Positions 8,069 through 60,160 of a stretch of 64,000 bases of DNA are shown piece by piece (positions within the stretch are counted from its first letter, which is position 1; each line of letters begins with the position of its first letter). Origin of the DNA: Zeus faber (lineage: Eukaryota > Chordata > Actinopteri > Zeiformes > Zeidae). The position numbers were made by a program, and so were the translations under genes. The stretch is taken from assembly GCA_960531495.1 (NCBI GenBank), contig OY482854.1, positions 15,548,308 through 15,612,307 of the forward strand. Reading direction: 5' to 3'. The notes beneath the pieces are model-generated. The model worked only from the letters and a program-made list of their open reading frames with translations, ran no database searches and was not told the origin of the DNA.

Positions 8069-8089
8069 GTCTCTGTCCGTGGCGCTGAA
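8069..8089 (-). promoter_or_regulatory. RE1/NRSE-like site downstream of B3
   Basis: The minus strand reads TTCAGCGCC, two spacer bases, then GGACAGAGAC. The RE1 consensus bound by REST is TTCAGCACC-NN-GGACAGCGCC. The left half has one mismatch, and the GGACAG of the right half is intact. It is 527 bp from the B3 donor. Confidence 0.65.
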
Positions 8090-11966: not shown

Positions 11967-11987
11967 GTCACTGTCCACGGTGCTGAA
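11967..11987 (-). promoter_or_regulatory. RE1/NRSE-like site downstream of B4
   Basis: The minus strand reads TTCAGCACC, GT, then GGACAGTGAC. The left half is perfect and the right half has mismatches only near its end. It is 528 bp from the B4 donor. Confidence 0.7.
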
Positions 11988-15708: not shown

Positions 15709-15729
15709 ATCACTGTCCACGGTGCTGAA
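15709..15729 (-). promoter_or_regulatory. RE1/NRSE-like site downstream of B5
   Basis: The minus strand reads TTCAGCACC, GT, then GGACAGTGAT. It is 527 bp from the B5 donor, the same distance as for B3 and B4. Confidence 0.68.
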
Positions 15730-20169: not shown

Positions 20170-20769
20170 CAGACCAGAGAGCGCTGGATCTGCTTTCAGC
20201 ACCACGCCATGTGGACAGCGCCACACAGGCGGCAGAGCCGAGGTGCTGCACGCTGCTCGACTCTGACGCCAACAGGAAGCAATGCAGGCTTTATAACGCA
20301 GCAATGCACCTTAGTCGGTAAAGAGATCAATAGCTGTGAACTCTACGAGTATTGTTTTAGTTTTTAAACACAATTCTGAAACTGATTTAAGAGTTGCATT
20401 ATCTACATCAGTGACAATTTGATCCACATTAGGCCATGGACCGCATTTCATTAGATTTTGTCTCTGGGACCCTGATCTGAGAATATTTTTTTATTGCTAT
20501 AATGTGAAATAGTACAAATAACCATACCGTTCTGTAATGTATATAACAGTAAATCTATGATCAAATAAGCCATTATTGTACATTCTCTAATGGGGATAAC
20601 GTCTTGTAAATTATATAACAATGGAGTTAAACCAATAATATTTTATCTGGGGACCCCCTGGAACCTCTTGAAGGACACCTGGGGATCCCCATACCCCACG
20701 TTGAAAACCACTGGTCTGCAGTGTTTTGAAAAGGACGTGACACGAAAAAAGACAAACGTCACAGACCGG
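20170..20769. repeat. Tandem 600-bp duplication, copy 1
   Basis: Nearly the same sequence follows directly as copy 2, offset by about 599-601 bases. The end holds GGGGATCCCC and TTGAAAACCACTG, which resembles the end of some hAT-type elements, so the unit may derive from a mobile element. It carries an RE1-like site. Confidence 0.8.
20195..20222 (+). promoter_or_regulatory. RE1-like site with widened spacing, copy 1
   Basis: Perfect half-sites TTCAGCACC (20195-20203) and GGACAGCGCC (20213-20222) are separated by nine bases instead of two. The half-site centre distance grows from the canonical 11 to 18. REST is known to accept expanded spacing of about 16-19. Confidence 0.6.
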
Positions 20770-21372
20770 AGACCAGAGAGCGCTGGATCTGCTTTCAGCA
20801 CCGCCGCCATGTGGACAGCGCCACACAGGCGGCAGAGCCGAGGTGCTGCACGCTGCTCGACTCTGACGCCAACAGGAAGCAATGCAGGCTTTATAACGCA
20901 GCAATGCACCTTAGTCGGAAAAGAGATCAATAGCTGTGAACTTTACGTGTATTGTTTTAGTTTTTAAACACAATACTGAAACGCTGATTTAAGAGTTGCA
21001 TTTTCTACATCAGTGACAATTTGATCCACATTAGGCCATGGACCGCAATTAATTAGATTTTGTCTCTGGGACCCTGATCTGAGAATATTTTTTTATTGCT
21101 ATAATGTGATATAGTACAAATAACCATACCGTTCTGTAATGGATATAACAGTAAAACTATGATCAAACCAGCCATTATTGTACATTCTCTAATAGGGTAA
21201 CGTCTTGTAAATTAGATAATTGTGAAGTTTAATCAATAATAATTTATCTGGGGACACCCTGGAACCTCTTAAAGGACACCTGGGGATCCCCATTCCCCAC
21301 ATTGAAAACCACTGGTCTGCAGTGTTTTGAAAAGGATGTGACACGAGAAAAGACGAAAGTCATAGACCGGAG
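20770..21372. repeat. Tandem 600-bp duplication, copy 2
   Basis: Second copy of the unit above, with scattered base changes. It ends at TAGACCGGAG, matching the CAGACCGGAG at the end of copy 1. Confidence 0.8.
20794..20822 (+). promoter_or_regulatory. RE1-like site with widened spacing, copy 2
   Basis: Perfect half-sites TTCAGCACC and GGACAGCGCC with a ten-base spacer, which gives an effective spacing of 19. Both halves survived duplication although the spacer changed. Confidence 0.6.
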
Positions 21373-39688: not shown

Positions 39689-39709
39689 GTAACTGTCCAT
39701 GGTCCTAAA
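39689..39709 (-). promoter_or_regulatory. Decayed RE1-like site downstream of A5
   Basis: The minus strand reads TTTAGGACC, AT, then GGACAGTTAC. The layout of an RE1 is kept, but with two changes in the left half and several at the right end. It is 32 bp from the A5 donor. It may be a weak or dying site. Confidence 0.35.
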
Positions 39710-42410: not shown

Positions 42411-42428
42411 GGCAATAGCGGCCCTCTG
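42411..42428 (-). promoter_or_regulatory. CSE-type promoter element of A5
   Basis: GGCAATAGCGGCCCTCTG on the + strand, about 280 bp before the ATG. It is a variant with AATAGCGG in place of AACAGCGG. Confidence 0.65.
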
Positions 42429-42674: not shown

Positions 42675-42695
42675 TTCGCTATCCAAGGTGCTGAA
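42675..42695 (-). promoter_or_regulatory. RE1/NRSE-like site downstream of A6
   Basis: The minus strand reads TTCAGCACC, TT, then GGATAGCGAA. The left half is perfect; the right half has one inner mismatch and two at its end. It is 99 bp from the A6 donor. Confidence 0.65.
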
Positions 42696-42793
42696 CACAA
42701 CAAAGGAAACATGTTGCAGTAGTACGATGAACCTTTTAACTGACATAAAATGTTATTAATTAATCGTTAAAAAAAATACTGTTACTTGCCAAC

Positions 42794-45178
42794 CTCTAGA
42801 GGAGAGTCTGGTTCATCCAGGATGCTCTTTTCACTCTGTATTCGCTGCATCGTCCCTGTAGAACTGGGGTCCATCATCAGAACGTTCTGACTAGCAGCTC
42901 TGCCGAACTTACAGTCACTCTTTCTGGAGTCAGTCGTCCTGCACACCTCGTAATTGTACACATGCTGCAGAGTCCCTGACCCCAAAGTGTCGGAGTAACG
43001 TGGTGGATAATATGGAATCACCGGGAGACTGGGATGATACAGGATGCGAGACTGTCTCCATCTGTATATTTTCACTGATATAATCACCACTAAACACGTG
43101 ATGAAGAGGAAGGAAACTACAGCCAAAGCCAAGACTAAGTAAAAAGTCAGGTTGTCATTGTACTCCTTGTCATGTGTAAAGTCAGTGAACTCTGAGAGCA
43201 CTTCAGGGAAGCTGTCCGCCACCGCCACGTTAACATTGACTGTAGCTGAACGAGAGGGCTGTCCGTTGTCCTCCACTACAACAGTCAGTCTTTGTTTCAC
43301 AACATCTTTATCAGTGACTTGGCGGATAGTTCTTATTTCTCCATTCTGTAAACCCACTTCAAACAGTGCTCTGTCTGTGGCTTTCTGCAGTTTATAGGAG
43401 AGCCAGGCGTTCTGTCCAGAGTCCACATCAACAGCCACCACTTTAGTGACCAGATAGCCCACATCTGCTGAACGAGGAACCATTTCAGCCACCAGAGGGC
43501 CACCGGTCTGGACTGGGTACAGAACCTGAGGGGGGTTGTCGTTCTGGTCCTGGATCATTATTTTCACCGTCACATTGCTACTGAGTGGAGGGGAGCCTCC
43601 ATCCTGGGCTTTAACATGAAACTGGAAATATTTAATTTGTTCGTAGTCAAAAGAGCGCACTGCATGGATGATTCCACTGTCAGCACTAACAGACACATAA
43701 GAGGAGATGGGAACTCCGTTAACTGACGAATCCTCCAGTATGTAAGAAACGCGAGCATTCTGGTTCCAGTCAGCATCGATAGTTGTCACTGTGAATATAG
43801 AGAGCCCTGGCGGGTTGTTCTCTGTAATATACGCCTCGTATGAACTTTTCGCAAAGACAGGCGCGTTGTCATTCACATCCGAGATCTGTATCGTTAAAGT
43901 GACGCTGCTGGAGAGGGAGGGCACTCCTTCATCAGAACACGTCACACTGATGTTATACTCAGAGGCTCTCTCTCGGTCTAAATCGCTGTCTGTAACGAGG
44001 CTATAAAAGTTATTGGATGTCGACTTTAATAGGAATGGGATATTATTATTAATGTCACATTGGACTTTTCCATTGTCGCCTGCATCCGGGTCTTGAATAT
44101 TAATTATCGTCACGACAGTATTAGCTTCGACATTCTCAGAAATTAGATTTGACTTGGACATGATGTTAATAATCGGCTTATTATCGTTGATATCCAGAAT
44201 ATCGACTATCACTTTGCAAGTGTCCGTGAGTCCTCCTTCATCGCTTGCACGTATGTTTATCTGATAATTCCGCGCCTTTTCATAATCAATATTTCCAATT
44301 AACCGAATCTCCCCGCTCCTCTCATTCACCTCGAACATATCTTTGACATCATCGAGAGTATTTCTAACGGAATACGCGATTCTACCATTAGAACCGTGAT
44401 CGACGTCTGACGCACTGACTGTTATAACCACGGTGCCTTTAGGAGAGTGTTCCGTGACAGTGGCTTTATAAACGGACCGCGTGAAGACGGGAGCGTTGTC
44501 GTTCACGTCTAACACGGTGACAACAATCTGCATTGTTCCAGACATCTGAGGCTCTCCTCCATCTACGGCAGTCAATACTAGAGATATATGCTCGTGCATC
44601 TCCCGGTCTAGGGGCTTTTGTAAAATCATTTCGATGTTCTTTGCGCCGTCTACCTGATCGTGCAGCTTCAGGGCGAAATTGTCCGTCGGTTTAAGCGCGT
44701 AGCTTTGGAGACCGTTTATACCGACGTCCGAGTCCACAGCCCTCTCCAAATCGAACTTCGACCCGATGACTGCAGACTCGCTTATTTTGAAATTAATTTC
44801 CCCTTTCTCGAAAGCGGGAGGGTTGTCGTTTATGTCCACGATCTCAACCGTCACGCTGTAGAACTCTATGGGGTTCTCCAAAATGATCTGGAAATGCAAC
44901 GCGCACGGCGACGTCTGTCCGCAGAGGACCTCCCTGTCTATTTTCTCCTTCACAAGCAGGACGCCCCTGTCTTTGTTCAGTTCGATGTATTCCACGGTAT
45001 CGCCGGAATAGACACGCGCCTTTCGAGATTGCAAGCTTTTCACGTTGAAACCCAAATCATGCGCGATGTTACCGACCAAAGAGCCCTTCGCCATTTCTTC
45101 ATTAATAGAGTAACTGACCTGCCCGAACACTGAACCGAGAGAGAGAATCGAGAGGAACAGCAGCACTCGCCCTTTCAT
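42794..45178 (-). CDS. pcdhg: Clustered protocadherin variable exon, family A (A6)
   Basis: A 795-codon exon starting at MKGRVLLFLS (45178). The frame stays open for 68 more codons upstream, but the family start and signal peptide (1-19) mark this ATG. Mature EC1 begins QVSYSINEE, with Asn in place of the Pro found in all the other exons. Linkers are DINDN, DVNDN, DINDN, DVNDN and DQNDN. The tail is standard, with KSILDEPDSPLE. The donor is GAG|GTTGGC, while most siblings have GTTAGA, so splicing may be weaker; read-through adds VGK. Markers are GGP and KDVVKQ. FQFHVKAQ follows FDYEQIKY in EC5. Confidence 0.93.
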
Positions 45179-45402
45179 TGTCCCTCGATGTATTGTTTCA
45201 GATAAATCCGTTCGAATATTTACTCCAGTCAAACGAAAGATGGTAGGATTTGGTCGCAGGAATGAGAAGAAAAGTAAGCAATATTCCACAAGAAAGTAAG
45301 ATAAAAAAAAAAGATAGGTCGATCCGTCTTGACGTTTAAGTGGATCACTGTACCTCGGAGACGGTCTCTGCGTCTTTAACACTGATTCTGGTAGATCGAC
45401 TT

Positions 45403-45422
45403 GGGGGGGGGGGGGGGGGGGG
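45403..45422. repeat. Poly-G run of 20
   Basis: Uninterrupted G20 on the + strand between the A6 CSE and the A6 start. Its length in the source genome may be uncertain. Confidence 0.85.
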
Positions 45423-45459
45423 TACTGCTGACGACATGTCCCAAAACAGACACATGCGA

Positions 45460-45475
45460 GTCAACAGCGGCCCTA
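45460..45475 (-). promoter_or_regulatory. CSE-type promoter element of A6
   Basis: GTCAACAGCGGCCCTA on the + strand, about 290 bp before the ATG. Confidence 0.72.
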
Positions 45476-45779
45476 TGAGTTCAAAAACATAACTACAGAA
45501 AGTGGATTCAAAAAATAAAAGTGCCGCATAGTTGCAATCTGTACCACGAATACCAGTCAGGAGTTCCTTACAGACAATGAGAAAAAAACCGACATTCAAG
45601 AGTAACTTTAAAAAACACAAATGAAGGGTGCAAAACCCTGTAAAATGAAAAAAATAAAATGCAAATGAAAGAATAAAACTCGTAATTATTACATTAGAAC
45701 CACAAAGCACGATGTAATGAGCATATGTAAGAAAATTACTGAATAAAAATGGGCATCACAAAAGCCTGTGTCTTTTCTG

Positions 45780-45800
45780 TTCACTGTCCAAGATGTTAAA
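45780..45800 (-). promoter_or_regulatory. Decayed RE1-like site downstream of A7
   Basis: The minus strand reads TTTAACATC, TT, then GGACAGTGAA. The right half core GGACAG is intact and the left half is poor. It is 95 bp from the A7 donor, the usual position, which is the main reason to note it. Confidence 0.3.
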
Positions 45801-45894
45801 AGAACATTTGCACCGGCAGGGTATTGTACCCTGTACAACAATCATATCGACACAAAACCATGTAGTAATTAAACATGAATAATATATTTCTAAC

Positions 45895-48297
45895 CTCTAG
45901 AGGAGAGTCTGGTTCATCCAGGATGTTCTTTTCACTCTGTATTCGCTGCATCGTCCCTGTAGAACTGGGGTCCATCATCAGAACGCTCTGACTAGCAGCT
46001 CTGCCGAACTTACAGTCACTCTTTCTGGAGTCAGTCGTCCTGCACACCTCGTAATTGTACACATGCTGCAGCGTCCCTGACCCCAAAGTGTCGGAGTAAC
46101 GTGGTGGATAATATGGAATCACTGGGAGACTGGGATGATACAGGATGCGAGACTGTCTCCATCTGTATATTTTCACTGATATAATCACCACTAAACACGT
46201 GATGAAGAGAAAGGAAACTACAGCCAAAGCCAAGACTAAGTAAAAAGTCAGGTTGTCATTGTACTCCTTGTCGTGTGTGAAGTCAGTGAACTCTGAGAGC
46301 ACTTCAGGGAAGCTGTCCGCCACCGCCACGTTAACATTGACTGTAGCTGAACGAGAGGGCTGTCCGTTGTCCTCCACTACAACAGTCAGTCTTTGTTTCA
46401 CAACATCTTTATCAGTGACTTGGCGGATAGTTCTTATTTCTCCATTCTGTAAACCCACTTCAAACAGCGCTCTGTCTGTGGCTTTCTGCAGTTTATAGGA
46501 GAGCCAGGCGTTCTGTCCAGAGTCCACATCAACAGCCACCACTTTAGTGACCAGATAGCCCACATCTGCTGAACGAGGAACCATTTCAGCCACCAGAGAG
46601 CCACCGGTCTGGACTGGGTACAGAACCTGAGGGGGGTTGTCGTTCTGGTCCTGGATCATTATTTTCACTGTCACATTGCTACTGAGTGGAGGGGAGCCTC
46701 CATCCTGGGCTTTAACGTGAAACTGGAAATCTTTTATCTGTTCGTAGTCAAAAGAGCGCACTGCATGGATGACTCCACTGTCAGCACTAACAGACACATA
46801 TGAGGAGATGGGAACTCCATTAACTAAGGACTCCTCTAGTAAATAGGAAACTCTGGCATTTTGCTTCCAGTCGGCATCTTTGGCTTTTACAGTGAATATG
46901 GATAGCCCCGGTGTGTTGTTCTCTAAAATATAAGAGTCATATGAGTTATCTTCAAAAACGGGTGCATTATCATTAACATCTGAGATCTGCAAATTCAGTG
47001 TGATGCTGCTGGAGAGGGCAGGGACTCCCATATCAGAACACATCACACTGATATTATACACAGATTCTTGCTCTCTGTCTAAGTCACTTTCTGTCAATAA
47101 ACTGAAGAAATTATTTGACGCTGCTTTTAAAATAAAAGGAATGTTTTCATTTATGGCACAATTAACCTTGCCATTTTCACCATAGTCCTGGTCCTGGACG
47201 TTAATTATTGTTACAACGGTGTTAGATTTGGCATTTTCAGATATTACATTTGACTTTGACATTACATTAATAACTGGCTTATTATCATTCACATCAATAA
47301 TGTCTACAATAACTTTGCAAGAATCTGTGAGGCCCCCATCATCACTTGCAAGCAAATTCACTTGGAAGGTTTGTGCCATCTCATAGTCAATATTTCCAAC
47401 TAAAGCCACCTGCCCACTTTCCTCATTGACCTCAAACATCTGTCTTACATTATCCATAGTATTTGTTATTGAATATTTTACTTTTCCATTCGAACCATGG
47501 TCTGCATCGGATGCACTGACGGTGGTCACCACAGTGCCTTTAGGAGAATTTTCAAACACAGTAGCTTTATATATAGGCTGCGTAAAGACCGGTGCATTAT
47601 CATTTGCATCAAGCACAGTGATAAAAATTTGCATCGTTCCGGACATTCTTGGCTCGCCGCCATCCACGGCCGTCAAAATTAAGGAGATATGCTCATTTTT
47701 CTCCCTGTCTAGAGGTTTCTGTAAAACCATCTCGACATTTTTTGATCCATCTCCTTGACTGAGAAATTTAAGGGCGAAATGATCGGATGGCTTGAGAACG
47801 TAATCTTGCAGATCATTCTTATCAACGTCTAAATCCATAGCCCTATCCAAAACAAATTTTGATCCGCTGCCGGCCGACTCGCTTATTTTAAATCTCATTT
47901 CACCCTTCTCGAAGGATGGCGGATTATCATTGATATCGGTGATCTCGACGGCTACACTGTAAAATTCGATGGGATCTTCTAAAATAATCTGAAAATGTAA
48001 AGCACATGGCGTCGCCTTTCTACAAATCGCCTCTCTGTCTATTCTGCCTTTTATGAGGAGGACACCCCGTTCTCGGTTGAGTTCAATGTAATCTGTACCA
48101 CCACCCGAATAAATACGAGCCTTTCCCGATTTGAGTCTTCTCATATCTAACCCCAAATCTTGGGCTATATTACCGACTAAAGAACCTGTCGCCATTTCCT
48201 CGGGAATGGTATAACTGACCTGCCCGATCACTGCACAAACACAGAAGGCAGAGATGAGCAACAGTACTTGCCGTCCCATTGTTTTCCCCCCAGCCAT
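45895..48297 (-). CDS. pcdhg: Clustered protocadherin variable exon, family A (A7)
   Basis: An 801-codon exon. The first ATG (MAGGKTMGRQ, 48297) has G at -3 and is taken; the ATG six codons on aligns with A2-A4 and is the alternative. Signal peptide to about 25, then QVSYTIPEE. The CX5C of EC1 is CRKATPC. Linkers are DINDN, DANDN, DVNDN, DVNDN and DQNDN. Private ectodomain features include NDLQDYVLKP in EC2 and DQDYGENGKV in EC4. The tail is standard, ending SPLE at GAG|GTTAGA. Read-through would add 32 residues, the longest in the array. Markers are GGS and KDVVKQ. Confidence 0.93.
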
Positions 48298-48323
48298 TCC
48301 GAATGCGACAAAAGCGATTATAA

Positions 48324-48342
48324 TTTTTTTTTTTTTTTTTTT
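48324..48342. repeat. Poly-T run
   Basis: Nineteen T between the A7 start and its CSE. Confidence 0.85.
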
Positions 48343-48526
48343 GGAAAATGTCCTTCAGAGGTAATCCCAGGAAGCACGGAAATTAAGGGTTAAATTCCAA
48401 AAGTCCAGCAATTTCGACAGACAGGCGGTTTCCCCGTGTCCGTTGTCCTTTCTTATCCGCACGGGAGCTTTGTGCGTCTGTGTTGAAAGAAAGCGTCTCC
48501 AGCGTCTCCACCAGGAGCAGCACGTT

Positions 48527-48543
48527 GGCCAATAGCGGCACTA
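48527..48543 (-). promoter_or_regulatory. CSE-type promoter element of A7
   Basis: GGCCAATAGCGGCACTA on the + strand, about 237 bp before the ATG. This variant also creates a CCAAT on the + strand, which makes it the closest link between the family A element and the family B block. Confidence 0.65.
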
Positions 48544-48794
48544 AGAGTCCAGAATGCAATACTACAGGAAATATGACTGCATGCCTTATGACGGAACAGA
48601 AGGTGCTGTTTTCACCTTTTTACAGGCCATTGTGCTTAAGCCTTTCGAGGTTATTATTTATTCATTTTTGAAAGGCTTGAATTTTAACATTGAAATAGAT
48701 GGAACGTTATATTTGAACAAATCTACCAAAGAAAAGGACATTACGTGACCTTACCGCTCCAGTTGAACATTCAGTACAACACTTGTTGTCGCTG

Positions 48795-48905
48795 TCAAGC
48801 TCAAGTTCAAGTTCAAGTGATTATTTGTCACATACATATACATGCGGTCATACCTTTATGCAGTGAAATGTCATGACACCCAGTAAGAGTGCTGAAAATA
48901 GCGTT
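48795..48905. repeat. Possible retroelement tail fragment
   Basis: CAAGTTCAAGTTCAAGTGAT then TTATTTGTCACATACATA and GCAGTGAAATGTCATGAC resemble a tail sequence widespread in fish genomes. No coding part is attached. It is absent from the other spacers. Confidence 0.35.
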
Positions 48906-49052
48906 GAACAAATTGGAAAAAGTGTACATTTTAATACAATAGCAACCTAAACGAACAACTGTATGTATAGCCAAAATAAGATAGTACTATAACTACATGC
49001 AGCAGTTACCACAACCCAAGTGTGGGCAAGCAAATAAGAAGATAATATGGAC

Positions 49053-49073
49053 ACCGCTGTCCAAGGTGCTGGT
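49053..49073 (-). promoter_or_regulatory. RE1/NRSE-like site beside the lost exon
   Basis: The minus strand reads ACCAGCACC, TT, then GGACAGCGGT. The core CAGCACC-NN-GGACAGCG is perfect. It lies about 84 bp from the relic donor, as in the intact A8-A11 units. Confidence 0.68.
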
Positions 49074-49149
49074 TTCCAGTGACCAGAAAGCCATCGTTTG
49101 AAACAAAATGGAAAACATTTGATTTAGTTAACATTAATAAGAAAATACA

Positions 49150-49173
49150 TTCTAACCTCAATGGGAGAGTGTG
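49150..49173 (-). pseudogene. 3' end relic of a deleted variable exon
   Basis: TCTAACCTC then ATGGGAGAGTGTGG matches the donor end of family A exons (TCTAACCTCTAGTGGAGAGT in A10, GAGAGTGTGG in A9). The sense strand reads through S-P-I-E and then |GTTAG. The exon sequence stops after about 15 bases and runs straight into a block that in the other units lies upstream of a promoter (for example 59748 onward). The body and promoter of one exon seem to have been deleted, perhaps at the shared GTGTGGAT. Confidence 0.65.
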
Positions 49174-49492
49174 GATTTGTGGATTTATGTGAAGATACTG
49201 CAGTCCTGCATCTCACTACATGTCAGCTGTATGAGATGTGACTGTCACGTGGCTAAAGGTAAATATACAGATAGCATTTATCTTTGTGACCAGAAACTCT
49301 TTGTTGAGACACAGCCATTGAATTAGGCCTAACAGACAAAACATGTTGTTGCTTTGTGATATATTTATATTGATCCCGAAAAAAATTATATCGAAAGATA
49401 TGGAAAAATATAGAATAGAAAGAGGACAGTATTGTACTGCAGTCTACGTTTTTCAGTCAGTGTGGGCAAGCAAGTAAGCAGATCATATGGAA

Positions 49493-49513
49493 ACCTCTGT
49501 CCAAGGTGCTGAA
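49493..49513 (-). promoter_or_regulatory. RE1/NRSE-like site downstream of A8
   Basis: The minus strand reads TTCAGCACC, TT, then GGACAGAGGT. The left half is perfect. It is 81 bp from the A8 donor. Confidence 0.7.
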
Positions 49514-49593
49514 TTTTAGTGCCACAGAAGCAAGAGTTACAAACAAAGAGGAACTGATTTGATATTGTTAAAATGTATAGATAGCAATCAAAC

Positions 49594-51990
49594 CTCGAGA
49601 GGAGAGTCTGGTTCATCCAGGATGTTCTTTTCACTCTGTATTCGCTGCATCGTCCCTGTAGAACTGGGGTCCATCATCAGAATGTTCTGACTAGCAGCTC
49701 TGCCGAACTTACAGTCACTCTTTCTGGAGTCAGTCGTCCTGCACACCTCGTAATTGTACACATGCTGCAGAGTCCCTGACCCCAAAGTGTCGGAGTAACG
49801 TGGTGGATAATATGGAATCACCGGGAGACTGGGATGATACAGGATGCGAGACTGTTTCCACCTGTATATTTTTACTGATATAATTACAACTAAACACGTG
49901 ATGAAGAGAAAGGAAACTACAGCCAAAGCCAAGACTAAGTAAAAAGTCAGGTTGTCATTGTACTCCTTGTCGTGTGTAAAGTCAGTGAACTCTGAGAGCA
50001 CTTCAGGGAAGCTGTCCGCCACCGCTACGTTAACATTGACTGTAGCTGAACGAGAGGGCTGTCCGTTGTCCTCCACTACAACAGTCAGTCTTTGTTTCAC
50101 AACATCTTTATCAGTGACTTGGCGGATAGTTCTTATTTCTCCATTCTGTAATCCCACTTCAAACAGCGCTCTGTCTGTGGCTTTCTGCAGTTTATAGGAG
50201 AGCCAGGCGTTCTGTCCAGAGTCCACATCAACAGCCACCACTTTAGTGACCAGATAGCCCACATCTGCTGAACGAGGAACCATTTCAGCCACCAGAGAGC
50301 CACCGGTCTGGACTGGGTACAGAACCTGAGGGGGGTTGTCGTTCTGGTCCTGGATCATTATTTTCACAGTCACATTGCTACTGAGTGGAGGGGAGCCTCC
50401 GTCCTGGGCTTTAACGTGAAACTGGAAATCTTTTATCTGTTCGTAGTCAAAAGAGCGCACTGCATGGATGACTCCACTGTCAGCACTAACAGACACATAT
50501 GAGGAGATGGGAACTCCACTGACTGCAGAGTCTTCTAGTAAATAAGAAACTCGAGCATTCTGGTTCCAATCAGCATCTCCTGCTTTCACTGTGAAAACAG
50601 AGAGGCCTGGTACATTGTTTTCAACAATGTAGATCTCGTAGGAGCTTTTCTCAAATACAGGAGCATTATCATTTACATCTGAGATCTGCACTGTGAGAGA
50701 GACGCTGCTGGAGAGCGAAGGCACTCCCTCATCAAAACATGTCACACTGATGTTGTAAAATGAAGCCTTTTCTCGATCCAATTCATTGTCCGTCATAAGT
50801 CTGTAGAAACTCACTGATGTACTTTTTATTGTAAACGGAATATTTTCATTAATTACACATTGTACAAGACCATTACTCTCTGAATCAGGATCGTTCACAC
50901 TCAACATAGCAATCACCGTTTGTGCAGGTGAATCTTCTGCTATTGATTGTGATTTGGAAATCATATTAATGACAGGACTGTTGTCATTGATATCAGTAAT
51001 ATCAATTATCACTTTACTTGAATCTGACAGTCCTCCCCGATCCATTGCCTCTATATCAATCTTATATTTTTTAGCTTTTTCATAATCAATCTGACCCTCT
51101 AATGTTATTTCACCTTCCTGAGAAATGTGGAAAAGCTTGGAAATACTATCCATGCTATTTCCGATTACATAGGTAATCTCTCCGTTCACATCCGTGTCTG
51201 CATCTGACGCACTGACTTTCGTTATAAGTGTTCCTTTGGATGCATTTTCTTTGAGACTTGCCTTATAAACGGGCTGCGTAAAAACAGGCGCATTGTCATT
51301 CGCGTCTAAAACTGTGATATAAATTTGCATGGTCCCAGACATCTGCGGTTCCCCTCCATCCACAGCAGTTAGGGTTAATGAAATATGCTCTAGCTTCTCT
51401 CGATCGAGGGGTTTTTGCAAAATCATTTCCACTTTCTTGCTCCCATCAACGTCACTGTGTAATTTAAGGGAGAAATTATCGCTAGGTTTTAATGTATAGC
51501 CCTGGAGCCCGTTACGTCCGATGTCCGAGTCAATGGCTTTTTCCAACATGAATTTAGAACCAACCACCGCTGACTCGCTGATTTCAAATTTTCTTTCGTC
51601 TTTTTGAAAAACGGGAGCGTTGTCATTTATGTCTGTGATCTCAACAGTCACTGGAAATAACTCCATTGGGCTTTCCAAGGTAATCTGAAAATGTAAAGCA
51701 CAAGGCGCCGTCTGTCCGCAGAGCGCCTCCCGGTCTATTTTCTCCTTGACGCGGAGCACTCCCCTGTCTTTATCCAACTCCATGTATTCGGCGCTTTTCC
51801 CCGTGTAGATTCGAGCGTTTCCTGATTTGAGCCTTTTCACGTCAATCAGCAAATCCTGAACGATGTTTCCAACCAACGAACCTTTCGCCATTTCTTCCGG
51901 TATGGAGTAGCTGACCTGCCCGCACACTGAGCTCAGAGAAAGGACTGAGACGAACAATAGTACTTGCCGTTTCATTGTTCCCTGCGACAT
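49594..51990 (-). CDS. pcdhg: Clustered protocadherin variable exon, family A (A8)
   Basis: A 799-codon exon from the ATG of MSQGTMKRQV (51990, purine at -3); signal peptide 1-24. It is one of a near-identical trio with A9 and A10. EC1 has DLLID where all the other complete exons keep a DLG or DIG motif: a two-base change turns GGG into CTG, so a conserved glycine is lost. The CX5C is CGQTAPC. All DxNDN linkers are intact. The tail has SQNILMMDPSS and ends SPLE at CTC-GAG|GTTTGA, so read-through adds one Val and stops. Markers are GGS and KDVVKQ. The membrane-edge residue is K (YRWKQSR), shared by the trio. Confidence 0.93.
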
Positions 51991-52218
51991 TTCTGTTACA
52001 GCGGCTCGATTTTAAATTCCCTTTACAGTCCAAATCCCGTTCGGTAAAAAATACGTAAATCCACAGAACGACAGACAACAAAAAAACAATAAAAATGCCG
52101 CAGCTTGATAAATCCTCGCGTGCGTGTCGTATAAAGAGCAATCTGCGTCTTGCCGTCGAACAAAATGAGGTTACGTGGGAGGTTCTGCTGCAAATCTATT
52201 CGTTAACTGTCAGACACT

Positions 52219-52235
52219 GGTCAACAGCGTCCCGA
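52219..52235 (-). promoter_or_regulatory. CSE-type promoter element of A8
   Basis: GGTCAACAGCGTCCCGA on the + strand, about 238 bp before the ATG. AGCGTCCC replaces AGCGGCCC; the trio shares this variant. Confidence 0.68.
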
Positions 52236-52977
52236 TGAGTTTAGAAAACGAAACTACAGAAACAAGAAATCACCTCAACGTGACCATAATGCCAAATAAA
52301 ATAGACCTCCTTCAACCACATTTATATCAACTGTTGGCCCCATATCAGAATTAAGCTGGGACAATAGTGCATCCAAAATAAAAGATAAAGTTTCTCCAAA
52401 CCAACTACATAATTGAATCCGTCATATAATAGGTCATATCATATGTTAAATTGTTATTAAGAACAAATATATTGGATCTACAGTGGCAAAGCACGGTTTT
52501 GGATGTTCTTTGTTTTTATTAACTGAATATCGTGGCACCATGTGGTTCAAATGATCAAAATGATTTGTTGATGAGAATGGTTTGTGTTGAGAGAGTGAAT
52601 CTACTGTATGCGTATGACTGAAGAAACCACGGTTAAATGTGTAAATAAGACAAGTAATTGCTGTTCTTCAGTATTTTCTAAACACTGTTTTGAATTGTGT
52701 ATGAATTATAATGTAAAAATGTGTGGACTTACGAGAAGAAGCACAGTCAGGAATCTCACTACATGTCAGTTGTATGAGATGTGACTGACGTGGATAAAGG
52801 AAAATATAGCAATGGCATTTGTCTTTGTTTCCTGAAACACTTTGTTCATACACAGCCATTGCATAAGGCAGCAGAGATATATATAGAAAGATAAAGAGTA
52901 GAAAGATGAAGCTATATTTTCTTGTAGTCTATGTTTTTCACAAAGTGCTGGCAAGCAAGTAAGCAGATTAAATGGAA

Positions 52978-52998
52978 ACCTCTGTCCAAGGTGCTGAA
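52978..52998 (-). promoter_or_regulatory. RE1/NRSE-like site downstream of A9
   Basis: The minus strand reads TTCAGCACC, TT, then GGACAGAGGT, 83 bp from the A9 donor. Confidence 0.7.
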
Positions 52999-53080
52999 TT
53001 TCAGTGATAAGGAAGCAAAAGTTACAAACAAAGAAGAACTGATTTGATGTTTTTAAATGTATAGAAAATATAAATCAAAC

Positions 53081-55477
53081 CTCTAGAGGAGAGTGTGGTT
53101 CATCCAGGATGTTCTTTTCACTCTGTATTCGCTGCATCGTCCCTGTAGAACTGGGGTCCATCACCAGAACGTTCTGACTAGCAGCTCTGCCGAACTTACA
53201 GTCACTCTTTCTGGAGTCAGTCGTCCTGCACACCTCGTAATTGTACACATGCTGCAGAGTCCCTGACCCCAAAGTGTCGGAGTAACGTGGGGGAAAATAT
53301 GGAATCACCGGGAGACTGGGATGATACAGGATGCGAGACTGTTTCCACCTGTATATTTTCACTGATATAATCACCACTAAACACGTGATGAAGAGAAAGG
53401 AAACTACAGCCAAAGCCAAGACTAAGTAAAAAGTCAGGTTGTCATTGTACTCCTTGTCGTGTGTAAAGTCAGTGAACTCTGAGAGCACTTCAGGGAAGCT
53501 GTCCGCCACCGCCACGTTAACACTGACTGTAGCTGAACGAGAGGGCTGTCCGTTGTCCTCCACTACAACAGTCAGTCTTTGTTTCACAGCATCTTTATCA
53601 GTGACTTGGCGGATAGTTCTTATTTCTCCATTCTGTAAACCCACTTCAAACAGCGCTCTGTCTGTGGCTTTCTGCAGTTTATAGGAGAGCCAGGCGTTCT
53701 GTCCAGAGTCCACATCAACAGCCACCACTTTAGTGACCAGATAGCCCACATCTGCTGAACGAGGAACCATTTCAGCCACCAGAGGGCCACCGGTCTGGAC
53801 TGGGTACAGAACCTGAGGGGGGTTGTCGTTCTGGTCCTGGATCATTATTTTCACCGTCACATTGCTACTGAGTGGAGGGGAGCCTCCATCCTGGGCTTTG
53901 ACGTGAAACTGGAAATCTTTTATCTGTTCGTAATCAAAAGAGCGCACTGCATGGATGACTCCACTGTCAGCACTAACAGACACATATGAGGAGATGGGAA
54001 CTCCGTTGACTGCAGAGTCTTCTAGTAAATAAGAAACTCGAGCATTCTGGTTCCAATCAGAATCTTCTGCTTTCACTGTGAAAACAGAAAGACCTGGTAC
54101 GTTGTTTTCAACAATGTAGATCTCGTAGGAGCTTTTCTCAAATACAGGAGCATTATCATTTACATCTGAGATCTTCACGGTGAGAGTGACGCTGGTGGAG
54201 AGAGAAGGCACTCCCTCATCAAAACACGTCACACTGATGTTGTAAAACGAAGCCTTTTCTCGATCCAATTCATTGTCTGTCATAAGTCTGTAGAAACTCA
54301 CTGATGTACTTTTTATTGTAAACGGAATATTTTCATTTATTACACATTGTACAAGACCATTACTCTCTGAATCAGGATCGTTCACACTCAACATTGCAAT
54401 CACCGTTTGTGCAGGTGAATCTTCTGCTATTGATTGTGATTTGGAAATCATATGAATAACAGGACTGTTGTCATTGATATCAGTAATATCAATTATCACT
54501 TTACTTGAATCGGACAGTCCTCCCCGATCCTTTGCCTCTATATCAATCTCATATCGTTTTGCTTTTTCATAATCAATCTGACCATCTAATATTAGATCAC
54601 CCTCCTCAGAGATGAGGAAAAGCTGGGAAATACTATCCATGCTATTCCCGATAACATACGTAATCTCCCCGTTCACATCCGTGTCCGCATCTGACGCACT
54701 GACTTTCGTTATAAATGTTCCTTTGGATGCATTTTCTTTGAGACTTGCCTTATAAACAGGCTGCGTAAAAACAGGCGCATTATCATTCGCGTCTAAAACG
54801 GTGATATAAATCTGCATGGTCCCAGACATCTGAGGTTCCCCTCCATCCACAGCAGTTAAGGTTAATGAAATATGCTCTAGCTTCTCTCGATCGAGGGGTT
54901 TTTGCAAAATCATTTCCACTTTCTTACTCCCATCAGCTTGACCATGCAATTTAAGAGAGAAATTGTCGCTAGGTTTTAATGTATAGCCCTGAAGCCCGTT
55001 ACGTCCGATGTCCGAGTCAATGGCTTTTTCCAACATGAATTTAGAACCAACCACCGCTGACTCGCTGATTTCAATTTTGCTATCGTCTTTCTGAAAAAGG
55101 GGGGCGTTGTCATTTATGTCTGTGATCTCAACAGTCACTGGAAATAACTCCATTGGGCTTTCCAAGGTAATCTGAAAATGTAAAGCACAAGGCGCCGTCT
55201 GTCCACAGAGCGCCTCCCGGTCTATTTTCTCCTTGACGCGGAGCACTCCCCTGTCTTTATCCAACTCCATGTATTCGGCGCTTTTCCCCGTGTAGATTCG
55301 AGCGTTTCCTGATTTGAGCCTTTTCACGTCAATCCCCAAATCCTGAACGATGTTTCCAACCAACGAACCTTTCGCCATTTCTTCCGGTATGGAGTAGCTG
55401 ACCTGCCCGCACACTGAGCTCAGAGAAAGGACTGAGATGAACAATAGTACTTGCCGTTTCATTGTTCCCTGCGACAT
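53081..55477 (-). CDS. pcdhg: Clustered protocadherin variable exon, family A (A9)
   Basis: A 799-codon exon of the A8-A10 trio, with the same MSQGTMKRQV start and signal peptide. EC1 keeps QDLGID. Differences from A8 and A10 include QKDDSKIEIS at the start of EC2 and FLISEEGDLILDG in EC3. The tail has private changes (YFPPRYSD, NVLVMDPSS, DEPHSPLE). The donor is GAG|GTTTGA, so read-through adds only Val. Markers are GGP and KDAVKQ. In EC6 it also has SVNVAVADSF where the others have NVNVAVADSF. It encodes one complete adhesion isoform. Confidence 0.94.
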
Positions 55478-55705
55478 TTCTGTTACAGCGGCTCGATGTT
55501 AAATTCCATTTACAGTCCAAATCCCGTTCGGTAAAAAACACGTAAATCCACAGAACGACAGACAACAAAAAAACAATAAAAATGCCGCAGCTTGATAAAT
55601 CCTCGCGTGCGTGTCGTATAAAGAGCAATCTGCGTCTTGCCGTCGAACAAAATGAGGTTACGTGGGAGGTTCTGCTGCAAATCTATTCGTTAACTGTCAG
55701 ACACT

Positions 55706-55722
55706 GGTCAACAGCGTCCCGA
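55706..55722 (-). promoter_or_regulatory. CSE-type promoter element of A9
   Basis: GGTCAACAGCGTCCCGA on the + strand, about 236 bp before the ATG. Confidence 0.68.
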
Positions 55723-56506
55723 TGAGTTTAGAAAACGAAACTACAGAAAAAAGAAATCACCTCAATGTGACTAACATGCCAATTATAATAGATCTCCATC
55801 AACCACATTTATATCAACTGTTGGCCCCATATCAAAATGAAACTAGGACAATAGTGCATCCCAAATAAAAGATAAATTTTCTCCAAAACGAATACATAAT
55901 TGAATCCATCATATAGTAGGTCATATCATATGTCAACCTTAAAGTGTTATGAAGAACAAATATATTGGATCTACAGTAGCAAAGCACAGTTTTGGATGTT
56001 CTTTGTTTTTATTAACTGAATATCGTGGCACCATATGGTTCAAATGATCAAAATGATTTGTTGATGAGAAGGGTTTGTGTTGAGAGAGTGAATATACTGT
56101 ATGAGTATGACTGAAGAAACCACGGTTAAATGTGTAAATAAGACAAGTAATTGCTGTTCTTCAGTATTTTCTACACATTGTTTTGAATTGTGTATGAATT
56201 ATAATGTGAAAATGTGTGGATTTACGAGAAGATGCAGCAGTCAGGAATCTCACTACATGTCAGTTGTAAGAGATGTGACTGACGTGGCTAAAGATAAATA
56301 TGCCGATGGCATTTGTTTTGTTTTCCTGAAACACTTTGTTCATACACAGCCATCGAATAAGGCCACAGCGGCTACATCTACCTTGATCCCGAAAATATTA
56401 TATTTAAATATATAGAAAAATATTGAATAGGAAGTTAAAGCTATATTTTCTTGCAGTCTATGTTTTTCACTCGGTGTTGACAAGCAAGCAAGCAGATCAA
56501 ATCGAA

Positions 56507-56527
56507 AGCGCTGTCCACGGTGCTGAA
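56507..56527 (-). promoter_or_regulatory. RE1/NRSE site downstream of A10
   Basis: The minus strand reads TTCAGCACC, GT, then GGACAGCGCT. Both half-sites match the consensus except the last base. It is 84 bp from the A10 donor and, with the site at 60057, the strongest in the window. Confidence 0.8.
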
Positions 56528-56610
56528 TTTCAGTGATAAGGAAGCAGGAGTTACAAACAAAGAGGAACTGATTTGATGTTGTTACAGTTTATAGAAAATA
56601 GCGATCTAAC

Positions 56611-59007
56611 CTCTAGTGGAGAGTCTGGTTCATCCAGGATGTTCTTTTCACTCTGTATTCGCTGCATCGTCCCTGTAGAACTGGGGTCCATCATCAGAAC
56701 GTTCTGACTAGCAGCTCTGCCAAACTTACAGTCACTCTTTCTGGAGTCAGTCGTCCTGCACACCTCGTAATTGTACACATGCTGCAGAGTCCCTGATCCC
56801 AAAGTGTCGGAGTAACGTGGTGGATAATATGGAATCACCGGGAGACTGGGATGATACAGGATGCGAGACTGTTTCCACCTGTATATTTTCACTGATATAA
56901 TCACCACTAAACACGTGATGAAGAGAAAGGAAACTACAGCCAAAGCCAGAACTAAGTAAAAAGTCAGGTTGTCATTGTACTCCTTGTCATGTGTGAAGTC
57001 AGTGAACTCTGAGAGCACTTCAGGGAAGCTGTCCGCCACCGCCACGTTAACATTGACTGTAGCTGAACGAGAGGGCTGTCCGTTGTCCTCCACTACAACA
57101 GTCAGTCTTTGTTTCACAGCATCTTTATCAGTGACTTGGCGGATAGTTCTTATTTCTCCATTCTGTAAACCCACTTCAAACAGCGCTCTGTCTGTGGCTT
57201 TCTGCAGTTTATAGGAGAGCCAGGCGTTCTGTCCAGAGTCCACATCAACAGCCACCACTTTAGTGACCAGATAGCCCACATCTGCTGAACGAGGAACCAT
57301 TTCAGCCACCAGAGAGCCACCGGTCTGGACTGGGTACAGAACCTGAGGGGGGTTGTCATTCTGGTCTTGAATCATTATTTTCACTGTCACATTGCTACTG
57401 AGTGGAGGGGAGCCTCCATCCTGGGCTTTGACACGAAACTGGAAATCCTTAATTTGCTCGTAATCAAAAGAGCGCACTGCATGGATGACTCCACTGTCAG
57501 CACTAACAGACACATATGAGGAGATGGGAATTCCATTGACTGCAGAGTCTTCTAGTAAATAAGAAACTCGAGCATTCTGGTTCCAATCAGAATCTTCTGC
57601 TTTCACTGTGAAAACAGAAAGGCCTGGTACGTTGTTTTCAACAATGTAGATCTCGTAGGAGCTTTTCTCAAATACAGGAGCATTATCATTTACATCTGAG
57701 ATCTGCACTGTGAGAGTGACGCTGCTGGAGAGAGAAGGCACTCCCTCATCAAAACACGTCACACTGATGTTGTAAAACGAAGCCTTTTCTCGATCCAATT
57801 CATTGTCTGTCATAAGTCTGTAAAAACTCACTGATGTACTTTTTATTGTAAACGGAATATTTTCATTAATTACACATTGTACAAGACCATTACTCTCTGA
57901 ATCAGGATCGTTCACACTCAACATAGCAATCACCGTTTGTGCAGGTGAATCTTCTGCTATTGATTGTGATTTGGAAATCATATTAATGACAGGACTGTTG
58001 TCATTGATGTCAGTAATATCAATTATCACTTTACTTGAATCTGACAGTCCTCCTCGATCCATTGCCTCTATATCAATTTCATAATTTTTTGCTTTTTCAT
58101 AATCAATCTGACCATCTAATGTTATTTCACCTTCCTGAGAAATGTGGAAAAGCTTTGAAATAGTATCCATACTATTCCCGATGACGTAGGTAATCTCTCC
58201 GTTCACATCCGTGTCCGCATCTGACGCACTGACTTTCGTAATAAATGTTCCTTTGGATGCATTTTCTTTGAGACTTGCCTTATAAACAGGCTGCGTGAAA
58301 ACAGGAGCATTGTCATTCGCGTCTAAAACGGTGATATAAATCTGCATGGTCCCAGACATCTGAGGTTCCCCTCCATCCACAGCAGTTAAGATTAATGAAA
58401 TATATTCTAGCTTCTCTCGATCGAGGGGTTTTTGCAAAATCATTTCCACTTTCTTACTTCTGTCAATTTGACCATGTAATTTAAGAGAGAAATTATCGCT
58501 AGGTTTTAATGTATAGCCCTGAAGCCCGTTCCGTCCGATGTCCGAGTCAATGGCTTTTTCCAACATGAATTTAGAACCAACCACCGCTGACTCGCTGATT
58601 TCAAATTTTCTTTCGTCTTTCTGAAAAAGGGGGGCGTTGTCATTTATGTCTGTGATCTCAACAGTCACTGGAAATAACTCCATTGGGCTTTCCAAGGTAA
58701 TCTGAAAATGTAAAGCACAAGGCGCCGTCTGTCCGCAGAGCGCCTCCCGGTCTATTTTCTCCTTGACGCGGAGCACTCCCCTGTCTTTATCCAACTCCAT
58801 GTATTCGGCGCTTTTCCCCGTGTAGATTCGAGCGTTTCCTGATTTGAGCCTTTTCACGTCAATCCCCAAATCCTGAACGATGTTTCCAACCAACGAACCT
58901 TTCGCCATTTCTTCCGGTATGGAGTAGCTGACCTGCCCGCACACTGAGCTCAGAGAAAGGACTGAGACGAACAATAGTACTTGCCGTTTCATTGTTCCCT
59001 GCGACAT
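56611..59007 (-). CDS. pcdhg: Clustered protocadherin variable exon, family A (A10)
   Basis: A 799-codon exon, the third of the trio (MSQGTMKRQV start, 24-residue signal peptide, QDLGID in EC1). Private residues include GQIDRSKKVEM in EC2 and NGIPISSY in EC5. Six cadherin domains, membrane helix and tail are complete, ending SPLE at GAG|GTTAGA. Read-through adds 19 residues ending SVPLCL, nearly the same as in A11, so its 3' flank is of the A11 type while its exon is of the A8/A9 type. Markers are GGS and KDAVKQ. Confidence 0.94.
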
Positions 59008-59224
59008 TTCTGTTACAGCGGTTCGATGTTAAATTCCCTTTGCAGTCCAAATCCAGTTCGGTAAAAAATACGACACTCGACAGAGAATTAAATATAAAAA
59101 ATGCCGCAGCTTCATATATCCTTGCGTGCGTGTCGTATAAAGAGCAATCTGCGTCTTGCCATCGAACAAAATGAGGTTACGTGGGAGGTTCTGCTGCAAA
59201 TCTATTCGTTAACTGTCAGACACT

Positions 59225-59241
59225 GGTCAACAGCGTCCCGA
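59225..59241 (-). promoter_or_regulatory. CSE-type promoter element of A10
   Basis: GGTCAACAGCGTCCCGA on the + strand, about 226 bp before the ATG. Confidence 0.68.
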
Positions 59242-60056
59242 TGAGTTTAGAAAACGAAACTACAGAAAAAAGAAATCACCTCAACGTGACCAACATGCTA
59301 AAAAGAATAGACCTCCTTCAACCACATTTATATCAATTGTTGGCCCCATATCAGAATTAAGCTGGGACAATAGTGCATCCAGAATAAAATATAAAGCTTC
59401 TCCAAAACGAATGCATAATTGAATCCGTCATATAATAGGTCATATCATATGTCAACATTAAAGTGTTATTACAAACAAATATATTGGATCTACGGTAGCA
59501 ATCCACCGATTTGGATGTTTTTTGATTTTTATTTTTTAGATTGAATACCCTGGCACCAAATGGTTCAAATGATCGAAATGATTTGTCTTTCTGTTCATGA
59601 GCATGGTTTGTGTTTGAAGAGCAAATCCACTGTTTGAGTATGACTTCAGAAACTCAGATTAAATGTGTAAATAAGATAAATAATTGCTGTTCTTCAGTAT
59701 TTTCAACGTATTGTTTTGAATTGTGTATGAATTATGACCTAAAATGTGTGGATTTATGTGGAGATGCTGCAGTCAGGCATCTCATTACATGTGGGCTGTA
59801 TGAGATGTGACTGTCAAGTGGCTAAAGGTAAATATACCGTTGGTATTTGTCTTTGTTTCCTGGAAGTCTTTGTTCAGACACAGCCATTGAATAAAGCAGC
59901 AGGGACTAAAAATGTTGCTGTTTTGTGGTATGTTTATCTTGAAAGTGAAACATTATGTTGCAAAATATAGAAATATATAAAAAAGAAAAATTAAAATGTG
60001 TTCTGCAGTTTGTTTTTCACTCAGTGTTGGCAAGCAAGTAAGCAGATCAAATGGAA

Positions 60057-60077
60057 AGCGCTGTCCACGGTGCTGAA
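60057..60077 (-). promoter_or_regulatory. RE1/NRSE site downstream of A11
   Basis: The minus strand reads TTCAGCACC, GT, then GGACAGCGCT, 84 bp from the A11 donor. It is identical to the A10 site. Confidence 0.8.
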
Positions 60078-60160
60078 TTTCAGTGATAAGGAAGCAAGAG
60101 TTACAAACAAAGAGGAACTGATTTGACGTTGTTACAGTTTATAGAAAATAGCAATCTAAC

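Follow-up and report, generated by a model that had tools for sequence, protein, structure and literature searches.

The DNA analysed here is a 64,000-nt window of Zeus faber contig OY482854.1, positions 15,548,308–15,612,307 (C10:15548308-15612307), in which features are numbered from the first nucleotide; a wider region of 264 kb around the window, in a genome of 803-Mb, was also analysed. The window contains 16 whole variable exons, all on the minus strand. Cadherin domains and a Cadherin_C_2 tail are present in all four variable exons scanned, and PCDH gamma B4 is the best solved relative of the three exons compared; the window is located in a teleost protocadherin (pcdh) gamma cluster, the products of which serve as identity molecules of neurons. 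The exons are arranged in arrays A and B. Exons with PPNNDWRFTQGQRPG... and ...YRQNVYIPGS..., which we take to be gamma-type constant exons, are located at win -18.3k, -22.2k and -24.0k. These follow both arrays, and the patterns used detected no constant exon in the A–B gap, so that A and B seem to be two sub-arrays of a single gamma cluster. Exons are numbered e0–e43 in transcription order across the 264 kb (e24 is A11, e29 is A6, e34 is A1, and e35–e39 are B5–B1). The splice donors of A2–A12 (30776 to 63386) are GTTAGA, GTTTGA or GTTGGC. In A1, array B and most of the exons located more 5', the donor is GTGAGN; this contrast might reflect a difference in splice strength.

Matches to the bipartite 21-bp RE1/NRSE consensus, the binding motif of REST, a repressor that keeps its targets off outside nerve cells, are present in the window above chance (Table 1). 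When sites were scored by mismatch counts against the consensus (19 fixed bases), in place of a measured REST matrix, eight matches with three or fewer mismatches were found, all on the minus strand, and the same scan of shuffled sequence gave a mean of 0.00 matches in 100 shuffles. Sites past the donors of A6 and A8–A11 and beside a lost exon had been predicted in one orientation, and others past those of B3–B5 at about 527 bp; each was located on the transcribed (minus) strand, as were the predicted decayed copies by A5 and A7.

Table 1. RE1/NRSE sites and associated elements (numbering of the window; sites beyond its ends are given as win positions)
Feature	Position	Strand	Remarks
Canonical RE1	60057..60077	-	1 mismatch; 83 bp past A11 donor, 1049 bp before A10 ATG
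Canonical RE1	56507..56527	-	1 mismatch; 83 bp past A10 donor, 1029 bp before A9 ATG
Canonical RE1	52978..52998	-	exact core, 3 mismatches at 3' end; 82 bp past A9 donor, 987 bp before A8 ATG
Canonical RE1	49493..49513	-	exact core, 3 mismatches at 3' end; 80 bp past A8 donor
RE1 of lost exon	49053..49073	-	core 1 mismatch, 4 in full
RE1 with diverged flanks	42675..42695	-	core 1 mismatch, 3 in full; 98 bp past A6 donor, 250 bp before CSE of A5
Decayed RE1 past A7	45780..45800	-	6 mismatches
Decayed RE1 past A5	39689..39709	-	5 mismatches
Canonical RE1	15709..15729	-	exact core, 3 mismatches in full; 526 bp past B5 donor, 743 bp before B4 ATG
Canonical RE1	11967..11987	-	exact core, 2 mismatches; 527 bp past B4 donor, 897 bp before B3 ATG
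Canonical RE1	8069..8089	-	core 1 mismatch, 3 in full; 526 bp past B3 donor, 912 bp before B2 ATG
Perfect split (noncanonical) RE1	20195..20222	+	9-bp gap; ~1.5 kb before B5
Perfect split RE1	20794..20822	+	10-bp gap; second copy of 600-bp tandem duplication
Split RE1, one mismatch	win 123344	transcribed strand	gap 9
Split RE1, one mismatch	win -3289	transcribed strand	gap 8
CSE (GGGACGCTGTTG) of A10 promoter	59228..59239	-	
CSE of A9 promoter	55709-55720	-	
CSE of A8 promoter	52222-52233	-	
CSE of A5 promoter, C-type	42413-42424	-	
Example RE1-bearing module, common to several A-array gaps	59991..60135	-	
Remnant of lost variable exon (last codons and intron start)	~49100..49174	-	tblastn best E 1.2e-5

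The exact 16-mer RE1 core, defined as in PMC3531662, occurs 425 times in the genome, compared with once for the reversed control. The window has six exact cores, for which the mean density of the genome predicts 0.034, and the 163-kb cluster has 12, or 139 times the average; a chance origin of these motifs is excluded. In the survey of the 264 kb, in which a canonical site is a 16-mer core with at most one mismatch, the inter-exon gaps of the 44 exons (65.8 kb) contain 21 canonical sites, every one of them on the transcribed strand. No canonical site was found in 109 kb of exon sequence, in 30 Markov simulations of the gap set, or in the ~86 kb beyond the 3' end of the cluster, and one plus-strand site is located outside the gaps at win 163651. 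Canonical RE1s are present in 19 of the 43 gaps, one of the other 24 being uncertain owing to a masked stretch of 2500 bases (the gap after e16), and in 8 of the 15 gaps wholly inside the window, so that the layout of one RE1 per exon in the original prediction does not hold. A scan for the AT spacer alone gave two exact cores between C10:15.71M and 16.15M. RE1-like sites were also noted at C14:30064216, in a second pcdh-like locus (one mismatch), and at C10:16143610, close to the cluster's far 5' end (two mismatches).

Other elements also recur in the array. A CTCF-core-like stretch, CCACCAGAGGGCCAC, called with a consensus that we assume to represent CTCF, is present on the plus strand at 21 places in the A array (2 mismatches), six of them in the window and all within coding exons (31474, 34465, 40436, 43489, 53776 and 60856), with 15 more beyond; none of the CTCF-like matches coincides with an RE1. 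The sequence GGACAGCCCT, which is similar to the right half of RE1, is present at 11 places in A exons (28407, 31240, 34231, 40202, 43255, 46356, 50055, 53542, 57072, 60622 and 63848), and its recurrence may result from codons shared between the exons and from gene conversion.

Every one of the 32 A-array exons tested (e2–e34 except e17) has a CSE-like element (GGG[A/C/T]CGCTGTTG, three or fewer mismatches) at 108–295 bp before the ATG, the placement at e28 differing between scans: depending on scan range and wildcard, e28 has an A form with three mismatches or a C form with two, and the C form was used. RE1 is located 246, 252, 250 and 250 bp upstream of the CSE at e2, e3, e5 and e30, respectively, and farther upstream, up to 2355 bp, at other exons. 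Near A8–A11, RE1 is ~80 bp from the preceding donor and ~1 kb from the next ATG, and position alone is therefore compatible with a role for either the preceding or the next exon.

The original prediction had taken the location downstream of each exon to allow REST to act on each isoform, with each RE1 silencing the exon before it from just past the donor. The constant donor distances, 80–83 bp in A8–A11 and 526–527 bp in B3–B5, would suit such an action, as would the site that persists beside the dead donor of the lost exon. It is nevertheless unlikely, given that fewer than half of the gaps contain a canonical RE1 and that e2, the first A exon, is itself preceded by an RE1. The exon that precedes this RE1 belongs to another class and is 6.7 kb away, the distance from the RE1 to the e2 ATG being 462 bp, and the flanks of the RE1 resemble, by eye, those of the sites before e3 and e5. 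Furthermore, RE1 follows the type of the promoter after it and not of the one before it. An RE1 in the upstream gap, canonical or split, is present for 13 of 15 exons with an A-type CSE, compared with 3 of 16 with a C-type CSE (Fisher p 2.4e-4), and for 12 of 15 compared with 3 of 16 when canonical sites alone are counted (p 0.0011); these p values are to be read with the fact that the association was noticed in the data before its test. For the downstream gap, the corresponding numbers are 7 of 15 and 8 of 16 (p 1.0). Exon e17 was left out of the CSE and tree tests (masked stretch before it and unsure ATG), e21, which has a T-type CSE and an RE1, was left out of the two-way table, and the gaps after e16, e17 and e34 were left out of the tree comparison. 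Relatedness-aware pairing, with only three independent pairs, gave on average 2.2 pairs in the same direction, 0 in the opposite direction and 0.8 with no difference. On an exon tree of 30 rows, labels for the upstream gap required eight changes and those for the downstream gap nine, and shuffled labels were as low in 71 of 500 and 124 of 500 cases, respectively; both labellings cluster comparably weakly, and the tree favours neither exon. On balance, the RE1 ahead of e2 and the link with the CSE type of the following exon speak for RE1 serving the next exon's promoter.

In eight gaps (after e11, e12, e14, e15 and e24–e27), RE1 is embedded in a common stretch of ~130 bp. A profile built from the flanks alone of these eight seeds, with the motif masked, recovered all eight. 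It also detected the module of the lost exon (49019-49131; E 4e-18), a degraded copy behind e21 (E 0.005; motif with six mismatches) and, weakly (E 0.41), a stretch after e20, where an RE1 is present; of five more matches with E 0.66 to 9.1, four are without RE1 (8–10 mismatches) and the fifth is on the other strand. The exon remnant directly precedes the 49053 RE1. Identity between two groups of A-array copies is 0.908 in the motif and 0.653 in the flanks, and none of 95 flank windows of 19 columns is as conserved as the motif. When e29 (A6), the flanks of which are unlike the others, is added, the motif window is among the four best of 1132; restricting the comparison to A8–A11 gives 59 of 1132 windows with conservation at least equal to that of the motif. 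In B3–B5, the motif (0.841) is not above its surroundings (mean 0.874), and 728 of 1248 windows are at least as conserved. Because no flank window matches the motif between the A groups and more than half of the windows do so in B3–B5, motif constraint is evident for the A array but was not detected for B.

These data also bear on whether the RE1s are relics inherited through tandem duplication and gene conversion, functionless at most copies. The common flanks, the conservation in B3–B5, which is no higher for the motif than around it, and the decayed copies at A5, A7 and after e21 are what such relics would leave, and the uniform strand of the RE1s may likewise be mere inheritance. That most copies are functionless is quite improbable, however, in light of the constraint on the A-array motif above its flanks and of e18, e22 and e29, which have kept sites within diverged flanks (by eye, and the choice of these sites by motif favours this observation). 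Spread of the RE1s by a transposon was considered and rejected: in a genome search that skips very common words, a 211-base module query gave five matches and the block containing the split RE1s two, all inside this cluster.

Genome-wide enrichment, A-array constraint above the flanks and published NRSE control of pcdh clusters, that of fugu included, together lend good support to the predicted identity of these motifs. It is very probable that the motifs in the window are genuine REST sites and serve as silencers upstream of promoters.

The A–B gap contains a pair of perfect split RE1s, which was absent from the site list of the original prediction and is oriented opposite to the canonical sites. 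Perfect split RE1s with gaps of 7–12 bp number ten genome-wide, compared with none for controls; the eight others listed have gaps of 8, 9 or 11 bp. The block containing the pair has no third genome match. The region 20171-21372 is a tandem duplication of a 600-bp unit that is accompanied by part of a third copy, and this partial copy contains a repeat-like stretch that presumably resembles a hAT terminal repeat.

Equivalence of the pair to the mammalian HS5-1 enhancer NRSE was a first idea, with long-range control of the array as the implied function. The halves are perfect in both copies, which are two of the ten such sites in the genome and confined to this gap, their orientation is distinct from that of the canonical RE1s, and they are noncanonical like the HS5-1 NRSE as described in the available part of PMC8096226, and have, like that NRSE, a gap of at least 7 bp. 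The idea was rejected on the grounds that no constant exon was detected in the A–B gap with the patterns used and that the gamma constant exons (win -18.3k to -24.0k) are beyond both arrays; the pair is thus not located at an alpha/beta–gamma boundary, between the alpha cluster and the next cluster, as HS5-1 is. In addition, the 10-bp gap of the second copy is outside the human range of 7–9 bp, within which the first copy falls, and the A–B gap has only two weak CTCF-like matches (23350 and 26305). A teleost counterpart of HS5-1 is therefore very unlikely here; unlike HS5-1, the pair consists of two tandem copies between gamma sub-arrays, and its enhancer role is only putative.

Reports of NRSEs already exist for pcdh promoters of fish and pcdh exons of mammals. 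According to the accessible part of a review (PMC3601302, citing Tan et al., 2010, NAR gkq246), multiple NRSEs are present in the pcdh clusters of fugu, mouse and human; those of fugu are located in promoters and those of mammals in coding sequence, and deletion of NRSEs from pcdh constructs results in ubiquitous expression in Xenopus tadpoles. As in fugu, so far as the review describes it, the sites here are in promoter regions of teleost pcdh genes: all 21 canonical sites in the gaps are in the intergenic region 5' to the next exon. Here, unlike in the fugu data available through that review, the sequence is another one and a long series extends across the gamma array, to which motif constraint, the CSE-subtype association and a lost exon retaining its site are added. 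The words "silencer" and "NRSF" are absent from the main text of a fugu pcdh study (PMC1852091), within its available portion. For mammals, the available part of Tang et al. (2021; PMC8096226) describes NRSEs (sites a, b and c) in alternate exons of PCDH alpha and gamma, in C-type genes and in HS5-1, with gaps of 2 or 7–9 bp. Two alpha genes are derepressed in that study when REST is knocked down or the HS5-1 NRSE is deleted. A repertoire of REST sites among variable members is common to both systems; the mammalian sites, as described there, are inside variable exons, one or two per alternate exon with the exception of one gamma-a member, whereas all canonical sites in the Z. faber gaps and exons are in the gaps.

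The probable mechanism behind these observations is one in which RE1/NRSE sites 0.25 to ~2.4 kb upstream of the CSE, in a subset of pcdh gamma variable exons, would recruit co-repressors in REST-containing cells and hold the next promoter silent. In the A array, an RE1-bearing module was probably duplicated with the exons, the motif being kept while its surroundings drifted. Promoters without their own RE1 would probably be silenced by nearby sites too. Such control of genes lacking an NRSE in their 5' intergenic region by the NRSEs of neighbours was reportedly described by Tan et al. in NAR in 2010, who are said to have included zebrafish among the species with NRSEs. When REST levels fall in neurons, the array would become open to stochastic promoter choice.

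An array of interleaved GGGACGCTGTTG-type CSE promoters, nearly all with an upstream RE1, and GGGCCGCTGTTG-type promoters mostly without it, the two halves being gated differently by REST, is a tentative proposal and rather unlikely; no published link between CSE subtype and RE1 was found in searches of the open-licence literature. If it is true, direct gating by REST would apply to half of the isoforms, the remainder being gated via neighbours or not at all, and the two isoform sets would differ in tissue or developmental onset. More generally, the case for REST control of clustered protocadherins is extended to a large fish gamma array, the probable target of each RE1 is corrected to the promoter of the next exon, and neighbouring promoters with and without RE1 provide natural pairs for distinguishing single-isoform from neighbourhood gating by REST.
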